DNA of 6,596 nt, taken from the NCBI GenBank assembly GCA_024278345.1, contig JAJRTK010000379.1:1-6596 (forward strand), read 5' to 3'. The notes under the pieces were generated by a model. That model did no database searches and was not told where the DNA came from. It saw only the letters and a list, made by a program, of their open reading frames with translations. Each line of letters begins with the position of its first letter. The first letter of the stretch is position 1. This document shows, one piece after another, positions 1 to 6,596 of the stretch. The stretch is from a bacterium (lineage in GTDB: Bacteria; CSSED10-310; JAJRTK01). The translations under genes and the position numbers were made by a program.

Positions 1-3000
1 GCAGCTCAGGGAGTACCTCGAAGGCTTGGCTAAAAAGGAGCGGCGTAAACGTCTGGCCGGGGTTGTGTTCGACGGCGAGCACCTTGTGTTCTTGCGCTTT
101 CGGGCCGGCCACATCTCCCGTGAGCCTCTCGCCCCCGCGGATCGAGATGCTCTGGAGAAGTTCCTGCACTGGCTGGCGGGCCTCTCCTCCGGCACCGCCC
201 TCACCGCCGAGAACCTGGCCCGCGATTTCTCCATCGACCAACCCCGTACCCAGGCCGCCATCGGCGCCCTGTATCACGCGCTTACCAAGCGTCTTCTCTC
301 CGAGCCCGAGGGCATGGTGGCCAAGCTCTTCGAGCAGTGGCGGCTGTTCTTCTCGGAGGCCATCGACTACAAGGAGGCCTTCGGTGGCCGCAAGCTCGAG
401 CCCCTGAAGAAATGGGTGGCCAAGGCCGGGATTAGCGTCGCGACCCCGGAGGAGGCCGAGCGGTTCTTCTTCGCCCTCCACACCTACTTCGCATTGATCG
501 TGAAGCTCATCGCCTGGCTGGCCCTTTCCCGACACCTGGGGCCCAAGGTGGGGATGCCCCTGTTCGGAGAGCTTCTTGATCTCCCCTCCGATGAGCTCCG
601 CCAGCGCCTGCACAAGATGGAACAGGGCGGCATCTTCCGCGACTTCGGGATCGAGAACCTGCTGGAGGGGGACTTCTTCGCCTGGTACCTGTACGGCTGG
701 AACGAGGCTATGGAGCAGGCGATCCGGGAACTTATCTTGCGCCTTGCCGAGTACGACCCCACTACTCTAGTCATCGACCCGGACGAGACACGCGACCTCC
801 TGAAGAAGCTCTACCACTATCTCCTCCCCCGCGAGGTCCGCCACAACCTGGGCGAGTACTACACCCCGGACTGGCTCGCCCAGAGATTGCTCAATCAGGT
901 GGACCAGGAGTTCTTCGACAACCATGAGTCCCTGGTTCAGCGACAGCGGCGCCGGATCCTCGCGCTTCGCTGGTTGGATCCCGCCTGCGGCTCCGGCACC
1001 TTCCTGGTGCTGTTGATCAAACGCTATCGGGAGTTGGGCGACCGGCTGATGGTGCCAGACGAGGAACTCCTAGATGCAGTACTGAAAAACATCGTGGGCT
1101 TCGACATCAACCCCCTGGCGGTGATCACGGCCAGGGTCAATTACATCCTTGCCTTGGGGGATCTCCTCGAGCGCCGTAAGGGGCGCATCACGATCCCCGT
1201 GTACCTCGCTGACTCAGTGCTCCTCCCCGAGCTCGGTGAGGACCTGGAGACGAGCGGCCTCTATCAAGTGCGCACCTCGGTAGGTGTATTCCAGGTGCCC
1301 CAAGCCGTGTTCGCCGCGGGACGGTTCGATCGGTTCTGTACGCTACTCGAGGAGTCCGTGCGCTCGGAGCTTCCGCCCGATGTTTTCGTGGAGCGCGTGG
1401 TAGAGAAGTTGGGCCTCTCCGAGGCGGAGCGGAAGGCCGCGGCCGGCCCCTTGCAAGAGCTTTACGAGCGGCTTCTGGACCTTCACCGCCAGGGCCTGGA
1501 TGACCTATGGGCGCGGCTCCTCAGGAACAACTTCGCCCCGCTGACCGTGGGGGAATTCGATTACGTAGTGGGCAATCCACCCTGGGTGAACTGGGAGCAC
1601 CTTCCAGACGGGTACCGTGATGACACGAAAAAGCTCTGGGATCTGTACGGGCTCTTCCCACATCGGGGCATGGATGTGATCCTGGGCAAGGGCAAGAAGG
1701 ACATCGCCATGCTCATGGCATACGTGGCCATGGATCGGTTTCTGAAACCCGGGGGCAGATTGGGGTTCGTGATCACTCAATCGCTCTTCAAGACCTCCGG
1801 TGCGGGGCAGGGGTTCCGCCGGTTCCGGCTCGGAGAAAATGGCGATCCCATTCGCGTAGTGCACGTGGACGACATGGTGGCCCTCAACCCCTTCGAAGGG
1901 GCCTCCAACCGCACCGCGGTGATGGTCATCATGAAGGGCCAGCGGATCCGCTATCCTGTGCCCTACACGGTGTGGCGCAAGAAGGGGCGCGCTCGGTTCA
2001 CCTGCGACAGCACTTTGGAGGAGGTGAAAGCGGCCACGCGGACCATGAGCTTCTCCGCCGAGCCGGTGGACCCTAAAGATCTCACGTCCCCTTGGCTTAC
2101 GGCCACCAAGCCCGCCCTGCGTGCGATGCGAAAGGTGCTCGGCAAGTCAGATTACATCGCCCACGCCGGCGTTAATACAGGCGGGGCGAACGCGGTTTAC
2201 TGGATGGAGATCGTGTCCCGACGCCCCGACGGCCTGGTAGTGGTGCGCAACATCACGCAGGGGGCCAAGCGCAAGGTGCCCGAAGTGAGTGCGGCAATCG
2301 AGCCGGATCTCCTCTATCCCCTTCTCCGTGGCCGGGATGTGCAGCGTTGGCGCGCGGAGCCTTCGGCATACATCCTGATGGTCCAGGACCCCAAGACGCG
2401 CCGCGGCATCGCCGAAGAGGAACTCAAGGAGCGTTACCCCGAGACGTGGAAGTATCTCAAACGCTTCGAATCGATCCTCCGAGAGCGGGCGGCGTTCAAA
2501 CGTTATTTCACGCGGAAAGACAAAAACGGAAAGGTGGTCGAGACCGGGCCCTTCTACTCCATGTTCGACGTGGGCGACTACACCTTCACCCCCTGGAAGG
2601 TGGTGTGGCTTGGGTTTGGGGCGAGAACGATGAAGGTTGCAGTTGTGGGTGCAGCGAATGGCAAGCCGGTGATAAGCAATCAGGCAATGCACCCGTTTAT
2701 CCCGTTGGAGCACGAAGACGAGGCTCATTATGTATGTGCATCTATGAATTCCTCACCTTTCGAGCTAGCTGTGAGAGCACATACACAAGAGGGTGGCAAA
2801 AGCTTTGCACAGTGCAATATTCTCGATCACATTTACATTCCCAAATACAGTCTAACTGATTCGGTGCATCAAGCGCTGGCCGAGGCCTCCAGAGAGGCCC
2901 ACGAGGCCGCAGCCCGAGGAGACGAGTCCCACCTGCGCGAAATCGAAGAGCGGATAGACTCCCTCGCCGCCCAACTCTGGGGCCTCACCGACAAAGAACT

Positions 3001-3049
3001 CGCCGAAATCCATCGTTCCTTGGCGATCTTGGACGACAAAGGAGGTTGA
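1..3049 (+). CDS. Eco57I-class / type IIG restriction-modification protein with N6-adenine methyltransferase domain (5' partial)
   Basis: Probable combined DNA methyltransferase/endonuclease that transfers a methyl group from S-adenosylmethionine to adenine in its recognition site. The frame is open to the left edge (eight codons precede the first TTG at 26), so the true start and probably an N-terminal nuclease domain are off-window. Numbering from the TTG at 26: a conserved motif-X-like LGEYYTP at 275-281; SAM-binding DPACGSGTF at 318-326; GFDINPLA at 358-365 (acidic motif II region); catalytic NPPW at 517-520; the end of the methylase core near NRTAV (628-632). The C-terminal half is specificity-like, with LLYPLLRGRD at 762-771 and AHYVCASMNSSP at 900-911, followed by a charged helical tail (IEERIDSLAAQLWGLT from 973). 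The visible part is about 1015 residues, consistent with single-chain type IIG enzymes. The stop overlaps the translation signals of the next gene, suggesting coupled expression. Codons about 870-948 are markedly less GC-rich than both flanks. Cleavage activity is inferred from the family, because the nuclease domain is not visible. Confidence 0.92.
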   Translation, partial: QLREYLEGLAKKERRKRLAGVVFDGEHLVFLRFRAGHISREPLAPADRDALEKFLHWLAGLSSGTALTAENLARDFSIDQPRTQAAIGALYHALTKRLLSEPEGMVAKLFEQWRLFFSEAIDYKEAFGGRKLEPLKKWVAKAGISVATPEEAERFFFALHTYFALIVKLIAWLALSRHLGPKVGMPLFGELLDLPSDELRQRLHKMEQGGIFRDFGIENLLEGDFFAWYLYGWNEAMEQAIRELILRLAEYDPTTLVIDPDETRDLLKKLYHYLLPREVRHNLGEYYTPDWLAQRLLNQVDQEFFDNHESLVQRQRRRILALRWLDPACGSGTFLVLLIKRYRELGDRLMVPDEELLDAVLKNIVGFDINPLAVITARVNYILALGDLLERRKGRITIPVYLADSVLLPELGEDLETSGLYQVRTSVGVFQVPQAVFAAGRFDRFCTLLEESVRSELPPDVFVERVVEKLGLSEAERKAAAGPLQELYERLLDLHRQGLDDLWARLLRNNFAPLTVGEFDYVVGNPPWVNWEHLPDGYRDDTKKLWDLYGLFPHRGMDVILGKGKKDIAMLMAYVAMDRFLKPGGRLGFVITQSLFKTSGAGQGFRRFRLGENGDPIRVVHVDDMVALNPFEGASNRTAVMVIMKGQRIRYPVPYTVWRKKGRARFTCDSTLEEVKAATRTMSFSAEPVDPKDLTSPWLTATKPALRAMRKVLGKSDYIAHAGVNTGGANAVYWMEIVSRRPDGLVVVRNITQGAKRKVPEVSAAIEPDLLYPLLRGRDVQRWRAEPSAYILMVQDPKTRRGIAEEELKERYPETWKYLKRFESILRERAAFKRYFTRKDKNGKVVETGPFYSMFDVGDYTFTPWKVVWLGFGARTMKVAVVGAANGKPVISNQAMHPFIPLEHEDEAHYVCASMNSSPFELAVRAHTQEGGKSFAQCNILDHIYIPKYSLTDSVHQALAEASREAHEAAARGDESHLREIEERIDSLAAQLWGLTDKELAEIHRSLAILDDKGG
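2942..3015 (+). repeat. Methylase tail repeat, copy A (inside gene 1)
   Basis: This is the 74-bp segment encoding the C-terminal helix of the methylase. It aligns without gaps to 4223-4296 at 62 of 74 positions by hand count. The encoded peptides match at 21 of 27 residues, including the shared stretch LTDKELAEI. Weaker protein similarity continues upstream to about 2876 with a one-residue gap. The repeat lies in the same orientation and coding phase as copy B. Confidence 0.85.
3038..3045 (+). promoter_or_regulatory. Strong Shine-Dalgarno of gene 2, inside the end of gene 1
   Basis: AAAGGAGG lies in the final Lys-Gly-Gly codons of the methylase. It is 6 nt before the GTG at 3052, which is good spacing, but directly abuts the TTG at 3046, which is too close. 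It therefore supports GTG 3052 as the start of gene 2. With the methylase stop at 3047-3049, it implies that ribosomes finishing gene 1 re-initiate on gene 2. Confidence 0.8.
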
Positions 3050-3051
3050 AG

Positions 3052-4149
3052 GTGAGGTCGGCTGTGCTCACTGAGGAGCTGAGGAAGAGGATCCACGACT
3101 ATATAGGACCCTTTGAGCAGTACTTGAGTTCGCCGGAAGGCAGACGTGACACCCAAGACCGCCTGGAGCGGCGCCGGTTCTTCCAAAGCTTTACCTCGGA
3201 GAAGCTCGCAGAGCTCGAAGAGGCCGAGTTGGGCGAACTAATCAGCCACCTGTGGGCCAGCCGCATCTTCACGAACAAACGTTATCTTGTGGAACGACTG
3301 GTCACAGAAAATGGGCTTCCGAAGCTTCGCCAAGCCCTTCAAGAGCTCATGTGGGGAGAAGGTTCGGTATATGATCGCTACTCTCAGTTCCTCAAAGAAG
3401 TAAAATGGTTCGGTCCTGCGATGGTCACAGAGCTCTTGGCTCACGTCCACCCGCGGCAGTGTGGGGTTTGGAATGATCGGGCGAGAAAAGCCCTAGTGGT
3501 TTTGGGGTTCGGTGAGCTATTGCCGCTCAAGAAGTACACATTGTCGGCGCGAGAGTATGAGAGCTTCTGCCGGGTACTCTCTGCGATAGCCGCTGAACTC
3601 TCGGGCCTTGAGATCCCAGACGAGCCCGACCTGTTGCTTGTGGATTACTTCCTCTACGAAGTGTTCAGCTCACAGAAGCGCAAGCTGATCCCTGAAACGT
3701 TGGTCAAGGAGTTCTACCACGACGAGATTCGAGACATGATCCGCGACATCGGCTCCTGGCTAGGTTTTGAGGCCGAGAGCGAGGAAAAGATCGCGCATGG
3801 AGCCCGGGTAGATGTGGTTTGGCGAGCCCGAATTGGGAACCTTGGTGTTGTTACTTACGTATTTGAGGTTCACAAGGGTGGCTCGATTGACAGCCTCATT
3901 CTCAACCTGCAAAAGGCAAGGAGCAACCCCACAGTGCAGAAGGTGATCGCCGTATCAGACCAGCGGCAACTCGAAAGATTACGGCAGGAAGTGCATGGGC
4001 TCCCAGAGGAGTTCCGCAAGGCGCTTGGGTACTGGAAGGTGGCCGAGGTAGAACAGGTTTACCAGAACCTCGCGGAAGCCACGGAGAGCATCCAACGGCT
4101 GGAGCTTGTGCGTGAGGAGTTTCCCATTGGCCAGGCTGAGCCTTCGTAG
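3052..4149 (+). CDS. Putative PD-(D/E)XK-like nuclease coupled to the type IIG enzyme
   Basis: A 365-residue soluble protein from GTG 3052, with no signal peptide or membrane segment visible. The N-terminal half is helical and charged. Around residues 120-150 it has a helix-turn-helix-like stretch, with WNDRARKAL following W140, that resembles helix-hairpin-helix DNA-binding segments. The C-terminal half resembles a nuclease fold: a helical lead-in (HDEIRDMIRDIGSWLGFEAE), then GARVDVVW with D254, a hydrophobic strand, and FEVHK with E272 and K275, followed by GGSIDSLILNLQKA and a strand (VQKVIAVSD). The acidic-strand-acidic order fits PD-(D/E)XK enzymes, but the expected E-x-K reads E-V-H-K, so the lysine is displaced or replaced by histidine. 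The gene is 2 bp behind the methylase with its ribosome site inside that gene, so the two are probably made together. I know of no assigned name. A role as accessory restriction nuclease is inference; it could instead be a DNA-binding partner without cleavage activity. Confidence 0.6.
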   Translation: MRSAVLTEELRKRIHDYIGPFEQYLSSPEGRRDTQDRLERRRFFQSFTSEKLAELEEAELGELISHLWASRIFTNKRYLVERLVTENGLPKLRQALQELMWGEGSVYDRYSQFLKEVKWFGPAMVTELLAHVHPRQCGVWNDRARKALVVLGFGELLPLKKYTLSAREYESFCRVLSAIAAELSGLEIPDEPDLLLVDYFLYEVFSSQKRKLIPETLVKEFYHDEIRDMIRDIGSWLGFEAESEEKIAHGARVDVVWRARIGNLGVVTYVFEVHKGGSIDSLILNLQKARSNPTVQKVIAVSDQRQLERLRQEVHGLPEEFRKALGYWKVAEVEQVYQNLAEATESIQRLELVREEFPIGQAEPS

Positions 4150-4222
4150 TCGAGTGAGTTTCGCCAAACCCAAAGCCCGCGAGGTAGCCTCCATCCAATA
4201 CGACACGAAACAACTGACCCAG

Positions 4223-4296
4223 ACCGAAGAGCAAATAGACGCCCTCGCCGCAAGGCTCTGGGACCTCACCGACAAGGAACTCGCCGAAATCCGCCG
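4223..4296 (+). repeat. Methylase tail repeat, copy B (in the orphan remnant)
   Basis: Direct-orientation partner of 2942-3015, about 1.28 kb downstream of it. It has 62 of 74 identical bases and no gaps in this block. Differences include third-position changes and a four-base cluster that turns Gln-Leu into Arg-Leu, as expected for two homologous alleles. Confidence 0.85.
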
Positions 4297-4307
4297 AAGC
4301 TTGCAAG
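4295..4307 (+). repeat. Short direct repeat, left of apeA
   Basis: CGAAGCTTGCAAG near the 3' end of the methylase remnant matches CGAAGCTTCCAAG at 5711-5723 at 12 of 13 positions. Together the two copies bracket the AT-rich apeA gene and its ribosome site. The copies are short and may match by chance. Confidence 0.4.
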
Positions 4308-4325
4308 AGCAAGGGTGAACCCAAT

Positions 4326-4336: not shown

Positions 4337-5710
4337 GTGTTGATTAGGAAGGTTGAATACAGAGGAGTCTGGTGGTTACCAGAGGATCCTGACAGAGAGA
4401 TTGGTGGGATTCTTAAGTTTTCCCCTAGCGAAGGTGTTCGGCTTGAACTAGCAGGTGCACTAAAAGGGTCAGTAAATGTGAGCGAACCTTTTGCGCCAGA
4501 GTTAATCTTTGGCAAGATTCCTGAAAAAGGACGCGTTACTCTGTATCGCTGTTTAGAAGTCCATCGACTTGTTAGCGCAGGGGAGACCTCTGACATCATT
4601 GCCGGAATAGCGTTTCTTGGAGCCCATATTGACCCACGACATGCTACTTTTTCGTCTATGACAACGGAAGCCGTGGGTCTTGACTTATGGGCAAATATCA
4701 ATTGGGTTGAATTTCCAGAACTACAAGAATTACTTGGCAGGAGCTTCAGTGTTCGTTTTCACAGGCCTGATCCGTTGGAGGCGCAGCTAAGTGACGGTAC
4801 AAAAGTCGTATTAGGTGTTAGGGTGGAATGTCCAAAAATTTCTTGGTTACAGAGAGAAGTGAAGCTGAGGCGAAATACATTTGCTAAAGTGAATCTCCCC
4901 TCAACCCGACCTTTCGAAGAATCTTTGGAATCACTACAAGCAATGCTTGATCTCGCAAGTTTAGGAATCTTACACCCTGTTACACCCAGCCTCATTAAGG
5001 GAACGATCGAAGAAAACGAAGGCGAGAGAAACGAAGTTGAAATTCTATACCAGGTTTCCAACCAACTACCCATCGATGTTTCTGCTCTGAATCTTTATGC
5101 AACGCTTTTTACTTTGGAAGACATATACAATCATTTTCAAGACGTTATCTGCAACTGGTTTGACGTGAGAAATCGATTGAAGCCAGTTCTGACGCTATAC
5201 TTCGCTACAATTCGAGCTCCGAGAATGTACGTTGAAAGTCATTTTTTGAACATTGTCCATGCATTGGAAGCCTATCACCGGTTGACCATAGGAGGCTATG
5301 ACTTGCCAGATGATGAACACCAGAAACGTGTGGATGAAATCATTGACTCAGCCCCTCCTCAATGGCGCCAATGGTTGATGAATAAGCTAAAGAATAGCAA
5401 TGAATTGAGCTTACGCTCGCGATTAATGGAAGTATGTGATATGTTCCCCTCCGTGACCAGCAGACTGATTGGCAATCGGGGGGAGAGGAAGTGTTTTGTT
5501 TCGCGGATAATCGACACAAGGAACTACTTGACACATCATGATACTAAACTTGAGAAAAGAACTGCCCAAGGAATTGCTTTGTTTTACCTGACCGAAAAAC
5601 TAAAAGTCTTGGTTGAGTGTTGTTTGTTGCGTGAACTTGGGTTTTCTAACGAGTGGATCTCGGAGAGGATTGGAAGAGCACGTTTAGATCGAATGCCGAA
5701 GGTTAGATAA
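4337..5710 (+). CDS. apeA: ApeA-like abortive-infection protein with C-terminal HEPN ribonuclease domain
   Basis: A 457-residue cytosolic protein resembling ApeA, an anti-phage protein known to act through a HEPN domain, probably by cutting RNA and halting the infected cell. The N-terminal part opens with a pattern typical of ApeA N-terminal domains: YRGVWWLPEDP (residues 8-18), then G-x-L-x-F and a beta-rich region to about residue 290. The HEPN part runs from about residue 298 (YVESHFLNIVHALEAYHR) to near 445. It carries the R-N-x3-H ribonuclease motif as RNYLTH, with R395, N396 and H400 plus an adjacent H401. All key HEPN residues are present and the frame is intact, so it is probably active. 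The start is GTG 4337 (or TTG 4340), behind GGGGGTGA. Sampled GC is about 37-47%, far below gene 1, which suggests separate acquisition. It lies in the same direction as the restriction genes, 187 bp after gene 2, and may have its own promoter; I could not place one. The trigger is unknown. Confidence 0.85.
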   Translation: MLIRKVEYRGVWWLPEDPDREIGGILKFSPSEGVRLELAGALKGSVNVSEPFAPELIFGKIPEKGRVTLYRCLEVHRLVSAGETSDIIAGIAFLGAHIDPRHATFSSMTTEAVGLDLWANINWVEFPELQELLGRSFSVRFHRPDPLEAQLSDGTKVVLGVRVECPKISWLQREVKLRRNTFAKVNLPSTRPFEESLESLQAMLDLASLGILHPVTPSLIKGTIEENEGERNEVEILYQVSNQLPIDVSALNLYATLFTLEDIYNHFQDVICNWFDVRNRLKPVLTLYFATIRAPRMYVESHFLNIVHALEAYHRLTIGGYDLPDDEHQKRVDEIIDSAPPQWRQWLMNKLKNSNELSLRSRLMEVCDMFPSVTSRLIGNRGERKCFVSRIIDTRNYLTHHDTKLEKRTAQGIALFYLTEKLKVLVECCLLRELGFSNEWISERIGRARLDRMPKVR

Positions 5711-6099: not shown

Positions 6100-6596
6100 T
6101 TACCGATCCCGGTGGGGCTGCGCGTTCAGCTCCCATAGCGAGGGCAGCGGCAACGCATGGAGGTCCGCCCCGAAGGGGACATGCTGGTCCCCGGTGTAGA
6201 GCACGATCCCACGTCGGAAGCGATCGCCAAGCAGGTCGCGTCGGAAGCGATCGCCAAGCAGGTCGGCCAAGTACTGCAACCCTTTGAAATCCCGGGGGCG
6301 GACCGTGGCGGACGCCTTGACCTCGATCCCCACTACCCGACCGGCGGCGTCCTCCAACACGATGTCTACCTCCTGGCCACTCCCGGTACGGAAATGAGAG
6401 ATGCTGGGTCGAACCCGGCTCCAAACGATCTGTTTCCTAAGCTCCATGGCTACGAAGACCTCCAGGAACGTCCCCAGGAGCTCCGGCCGGCCCTCAAAGG
6501 CCTGCGTATCGGCCCCCAACAGGTGCGCCATAAGCCCGGTGTCGTTCAGAAGCAGCTTGGGCGATTTCACGAGCCGCTTCCCCAGGTTCGCAGACC
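6100..6596 (-). CDS. AAA+ ATPase, DUF4143 family, C-terminal part (5' partial)
   Basis: The C-terminal 165 or so residues of an ATP-binding protein of the AAA family with a DUF4143 domain. The frame is open to the right edge and reads NLGKRLVKSPKLLLNDTGL, the classic entry to this domain, so the start and the N-terminal Walker-motif ATPase lie off-window. A GTG at 6570 is internal, not a real start. The end of the domain has a nuclease-like pattern: FRTGSGQEVDIVLED (Asp codon 6364-6366), then GRVVGIEVKAS with E-x-K (Glu codon 6322-6324, Lys codon 6316-6318). It finishes with GIVLYTGDQ and LPLPSLWE before TAA, so the C terminus is complete. A perfect 27-bp tandem duplication (6212-6265) doubles the nine residues around LGDRFRR in frame. 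Members are common and often multi-copy in prokaryotes, and their cellular role is unsettled. It converges on apeA and is not in its operon. Confidence 0.85.
   Translation of the reverse strand, partial: SANLGKRLVKSPKLLLNDTGLMAHLLGADTQAFEGRPELLGTFLEVFVAMELRKQIVWSRVRPSISHFRTGSGQEVDIVLEDAAGRVVGIEVKASATVRPRDFKGLQYLADLLGDRFRRDLLGDRFRRGIVLYTGDQHVPFGADLHALPLPSLWELNAQPHRDR
6212..6265 (-). repeat. Perfect 27-bp tandem duplication inside the DUF4143 gene
   Basis: Positions 6212-6238 and 6239-6265 are identical over all 27 bases and directly adjacent. On the minus strand they encode DLLGDRFRR twice before GIVLY. From memory, family members usually have a single LGDRFRRG at this place. The length is a multiple of three, so the frame is kept. 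Perfect identity suggests a recent slippage event. Confidence 0.95.

Follow-up and report, generated by a model that had tools for sequence, protein, structure and literature searches.

A probable displaced 3' end of a type IIG restriction-methylase gene, and recombination in the conserved tail as a likely route of cargo insertion

The window (the whole stretch of DNA that was analysed, 6,596 nucleotides) contains, at positions 4175–4318, what is most likely the displaced former 3' end of a type IIG restriction-methylase gene. We think it probable that this old end was displaced, and the cargo gene ahead of it inserted, through recombination in the conserved type IIG gene tail. This reading draws on a repeat of the gene end within the window, a mosaic gene 1, recurrence of the arrangement and before/after alleles at other loci.

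The window is the entire contig C310 of a 6.1 Mb MAG in 550 contigs, and its features are given in Table 1. The contig start cuts off the 5' end of gene 1, which PADLOC PDLC03580 and PDLC03630 matched across the whole protein (E 0) and Pfam Eco57I matched at E 1e-12, as befits a type IIG enzyme. The ApeA-like gene directly 3' of the stranded tail is possibly an older cargo; no further tail was found 3' of it within the window. A minus-strand DUF4143 gene contains 27 bases (9 codons) perfectly duplicated in tandem and in frame (6212–6265).

Table 1. Positions of the features discussed in the text
Feature	Position	Strand	Evidence
Gene 1, predicted type IIG restriction-methylase	2..3049	+	PADLOC REase_II / REase_MTase_IIG E 0; Pfam Eco57I
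Gene 1 target-recognition segment, common to C431 copy	2560..2799	+	8 differences/240 bases vs C431; ~40% identity to L050 over most
Gene 1 3' tail, apparently replaced	2840..3049	+	42 differences/170 bases vs C431; up to 93% identity to L050
Gene 2, 367-aa putative cargo gene	3046..4149	+	Overlaps gene 1 stop; sub-threshold OGG-like (PF21790) match
Stranded, probably old type IIG 3' tail, 5'-truncated, stop-complete	4175..4318	+	Clear DNA homology 4211–4303
Gene 3, ApeA-like HEPN gene	4337..5710	+	Pfam ApeA_NTD1 E 7e-38, HEPN_Apea E 5e-32; PADLOC PDC-S58 E 2e-94

A repeat search of the window returned 2930–3022 and 4211–4303 as the largest direct repeat family. The end of gene 1 and the stretch behind gene 2 are identical at 73/93 bases in the same reading frame (z ~10.9 against all other placements, runner-up 42/93), which bears out the second copy of the methylase gene end that a preliminary description of this DNA had placed after gene 2. 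The frame of the stranded tail is open from 4052 to 4315, with the stop at 4316–4318. DNA homology is clear from about 4211 on, and 4151–4210 is weakly similar at best, at the protein level. The tail is the C-terminal end common to ~80 gene 1 relatives spread over many phyla; the window copy matched a profile of >70 type IIG tails with E 8e-14 and was the top profile match outside methylase genes among the ~80 related loci. That no methylase body precedes the tail at 4151–4318 also holds, since gene 2 stands there instead and PADLOC type IIG profiles align with the 70-aa stranded frame only over the last ~50 positions of the profiles. Differences between the stranded copy and gene 1 fall nearly evenly on the codon positions (5/7/8 in 93 bases), without third-position bias, a pattern that would suit a relic, small as the numbers are.

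Contig C431 of the same MAG carries a second copy of the gene 1 3' part, with 90% protein identity and without gene 2; it may stem from a paralogue, from strain variation or from misbinning. The target-recognition segment is 97% identical in gene 1 and C431, and the last 170 bases of gene 1 are 75% identical, a significant break (8/240 differences before, 42/170 after, Fisher p 7e-11). By 60-base windows, identity was 95–100% over most of the recognition segment, 77–82% over most of the tail and at most 60% near the end. Comparison with the Bipolaricaulota locus L050 gave the opposite trend (recognition segment ~40%, tail up to 93%), the gene 1 tail resembling that of L050, from another bacterium. 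Because the tail is conserved across the family while the recognition segments vary, relaxed constraint does not explain the drop in identity. We read gene 1 as a gene whose tail has been replaced and whose recognition segment has been retained. As that segment is shared with the gene-2-less C431, target recognition was not switched; the specificity switch first proposed for this locus is rejected, the conserved tail alone being different. The affinities of the stranded copy are mixed, partly C431-like and partly gene-1-like, and the end of C431 is also unlike the stranded end in the window. C431 (L085 = G000:C431, 3575–4330) stops exactly where its sequence turns 100% identical to gene 1 (window 2279 onward), as if one upstream sequence served two 3' ends in the assembly.

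Gene 2 sits between the new end of gene 1 and an old end. No relatives of it were found near the ~80 gene 1 relatives, and those that were found lie on four plasmids (34–44% identity) in varied contexts. On these distributions gene 2 is best read as an independent cargo gene; the idea of a fixed partner of the gene 1 methylase was rejected on the same two grounds, and with it falls the claim that gene 2 travels with a specificity module. Searches for gene 2 recovered just the window copy from 8 genomes of its phylum, and nothing from viral contigs and phages. The structure predicted from the single sequence had a mean pLDDT of 44 and was unusable. Three of the relatives (L089–L092) are on archaeal plasmids and the fourth is on a Monoglobus plasmid; each stands alone and is annotated as hypothetical. 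Judged by eye, D256 and the FEVHK stretch look nuclease-like.

A tail profile built from classic Eco57I-like enzymes (A2) was searched in 147 genomes of the WOR-3 phylum and had matches in 56 of them. Among the ~150 A2 matches listed, ~100 by eye count lay in frames shorter than 380 aa, some of these at contig ends. Dozens of WOR-3 loci showed one to ~seven stranded tails with cargo genes between them. All 34 fetched loci with more than one tail had their tails on a single strand, and in 15/15 loci with a type IIG gene and stranded tails the stranded ones lay downstream; these array loci, all from MAGs, were chosen from search lists, partly for holding several tails, and are not a random sample. 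At G192:C5 a single type IIG gene is followed by ~seven stranded tails in 13.7 kb, with 11 ORFs between. Cargo lies directly beside the restriction-modification gene and on its strand, gene 2 overlapping the gene 1 stop and 58/63 inter-tail ORFs of at least 100 aa lying on the type IIG strand. By contrast with these arrays, the phylum of the Bacillota MAG G018 (249 genomes sampled) yielded four tails, all in long frames and none stranded; arrays are thus no general property of such genes.

The cargo scan covered 55 proteins (54 cargo ORFs and gene 2) and returned TIR, Mrr, AIPR, HepT, nucleotidyltransferase, Fic (SoFic), AbiU and several PADLOC candidate families, as well as ordinary families such as EamA. 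By these family matches many cargo genes look like defence genes. Defence-library matches were obtained for the ApeA-like neighbor and for cargo of other arrays (SoFic, AbiU, TIR, Mrr and candidate families), and none for gene 2. Two cargo ORFs (L223 13015–13461 and L214 7504–8124) are probably the scan's two Y1 (IS200-like) transposase matches, an assignment made by eye.

Most stranded tails keep the whole 3' end with its stop, but their 5' ends are ragged: the match to the 56-position profile can begin at any point between position 1 and ~41. When 50 stranded copies were compared with type IIG proteins, best matches reached no further than ~70 aa from the C-terminus, with two exceptions (one at 92 aa, the other an intact gene end whose frame cuts it short). 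Confinement of the remnants to the tail, together with the ragged 5' ends, points away from general decay of tandem genes and towards events within the conserved tail. We therefore regard as improbable a reading that the preliminary description had offered as an alternative, in which a second, tandem type IIG gene downstream of gene 2 was reduced by deletion to its end. A deletion could leave a gene end, and C431 and C310 do give two copies of the 3' part in the MAG; decay, however, should leave remnants of all lengths, those observed hardly ever extend past the tail, and in G192:C5 the same history would be needed ~seven times in succession.

Still less credible, to a degree that we consider very improbable, is a small translated tail protein with its own function. 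In the window the frame is open and a GTG stands at 4154, just past the gene 2 stop. In the WOR-3 set the third-position share of differences was alike in stranded and intact tails (0.52 and 0.53); this equality means either that tail diversity arose mostly while the tails were functional gene ends, or that some constraint persists. Neither a common start codon nor a common ribosome site was found across the stranded tails, which tells against a free-standing small gene as raised earlier, and a ribosome-site-like motif preceded the first ATG in 11/66 (17%), against a background of 16%. Ragged 5' ends, broken frames in some copies and the near-even codon-position differences of the window copy likewise speak against it.

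Loci that resemble states before and after displacement were found elsewhere. At L014 (WOR-3) a nucleotidyltransferase/HepT-type (MNT/HepT-type) pair, toxin-antitoxin-like, lies between the type IIG gene and a second tail. The stranded tail there (96% identity over 81 bases) ends GAGTTGACGGAATGA, exactly as the intact L016 gene does and nearly as L023 does, and the end of the L014 type IIG gene itself is different and new (GAGTTGCAGGCGTGA); the flanks differ among all three loci. At L169 the type IIG stop and the cargo A start overlap (CGATGAGTTC), and at L165 a stranded tail leads into the same cargo A start, with ~60 bases shared and another gene between that tail and the type IIG end. The two thus compare as gene-cargo A and gene-cargo B-stranded tail-start of cargo A. 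The type IIG end of L226 has an L162-like body and a terminus nearer to the last stranded tail of L162.

Among gene 1 relatives, the stranded-tail pattern with a type IIG gene present was seen only in L014 and the window, and orphan tails of the gene 1 type in three further genomes. The empty-site allele suggested as a check was found in kind at other loci (e.g. L014 vs L016/L023) and not for the window, where an intact gene with the tail end GAGCAAGGGTGA ahead of the ApeA flank was not found. In L162 (1693–5225), an array with two cassettes, the last stranded tail is followed by genes for an OLD-type ATPase and a UvrD-like helicase, which look Gabija-like by inspection only. On the Haloarcula plasmid L171 (2519–8168) a stretch whose start resembles haloarchaeal type IIG N-termini lies on the opposite strand, adjoining a gene that lacks its tail; a free tail and a gene for a tyrosine recombinase follow downstream, and the locus is possibly rearranged or invertible. 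The unannotated tail of this haloarchaeal plasmid was rejected as a stranded-tail case, as it belongs to a rearranged gene instead.

In the reading that we favour, recombination in the conserved tail that follows the target-recognition domain (at most the last ~70 codons) would have given gene 1 a new 3' end and placed gene 2 directly behind it, overlapping its stop, and the former 3' end would have been left downstream as a 5'-truncated, stop-complete relic. Repeated rounds would build arrays of the form IIG-cargo-tail-cargo-tail. We infer that recombination between tails is the cause; it would be RecA-type, or would combine homology on one side with illegitimate joining on the other. Gene 2 would have arrived in the same event as the new tail, the stranded copy in the window would be the former end of this same locus, and the cargo may be co-expressed with the type IIG gene. 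The core of the preliminary description, that a new methylase 3' end recombined into a resident gene and that an old tail now lies past gene 2, finds support in the mosaic gene 1 and in the alleles elsewhere, and the specificity module attached to it is given up.

Two shared units indicate reassortment at tails. In the first, a cargo and its following tail occur at different array positions in G192:C5 and L215 with the same joint, homology ending 2 bases past the tail stop; in the second, a DUF3800-like cargo (named by inspection) and its preceding tail stand behind three different neighbors. These units, and array cargo on one strand, would also be expected of a dedicated cassette system, in which cargo and tail move as a unit (e.g. 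as a circle) and the tail is a recombinase site as in integrons. We consider such a system unlikely. A PF00589 search (G192, G016, G227, G232, G000) came up empty for the array contigs and the window contig alike, all of them incomplete; G016 had one tyrosine recombinase gene against ~31 tail matches; eight tails folded as single-stranded DNA no better than shuffles (z −1.1 to +0.9); and the 5' ends of stranded tails are ragged. Since the array contigs lack a tyrosine recombinase and the tails fold no better, homologous recombination is preferred over a dedicated site-specific system. An integron proper was rejected, the integrase being absent from the array contigs searched and the tails having no hairpin folding. 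Tentatively, and leaning against it ourselves, we raise the wider possibility that a distinct cassette system uses the type IIG 3' tail as its site of exchange: defence genes with their own tail fragment would circulate among restriction loci and insert behind the enzyme gene, and the resulting arrays would resemble those of integrons but have no integron integrase.

These loci bear on the question of how clusters of defence genes form behind restriction-modification genes. Stranded tails, as oriented scars of single insertions, would allow insertions to be counted and ordered and their joints to be mapped, and new defence genes might be found between two copies of a restriction gene tail. No literature was found on tail duplication behind type IIG genes or on arrays built on it; preprints and most subscription journals were outside the scope of the search, and this absence is weak evidence of novelty.

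In target-recognition-domain exchange (domain movement) in type IIG and type I genes, recombination reassorts segments and changes target recognition. Recombination inside restriction-modification genes is common to that process and to the present case, but here the change falls on the tail and spares the recognition segment. Some islands insert at a gene's 3' end and rebuild it, the old 3' end staying at the far side. The order of new gene 3' end, cargo and old 3' end is alike; the present loci differ in that neither the array contigs nor the window has an integrase, in that the cargo is a single gene or a few, and in that the truncation point varies. Integron cassette arrays share with the tail arrays one-orientation cargo, a recurring short element between and the same cargo at different positions, whereas here the repeat is coding sequence from a restriction-enzyme gene's 3' end, without a hairpin, and the integrase gene is absent from the array contigs. 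Defence genes embedded in other defence loci have been described (Payne et al. 2024, preprint, cited in PMC12255303), including DarTG2 between hsdS and hsdR of a type I system, in a gap termed a potential recombination hotspot (PMC12255303); the account given there of these genes does not include duplicated tails. In both cases small genes adjoin restriction-modification genes, many of those here being defence-like, but here the locus is a single-gene type IIG locus, the insertion lies in the 3' end of the enzyme gene, the tail is duplicated and stacking is possible.
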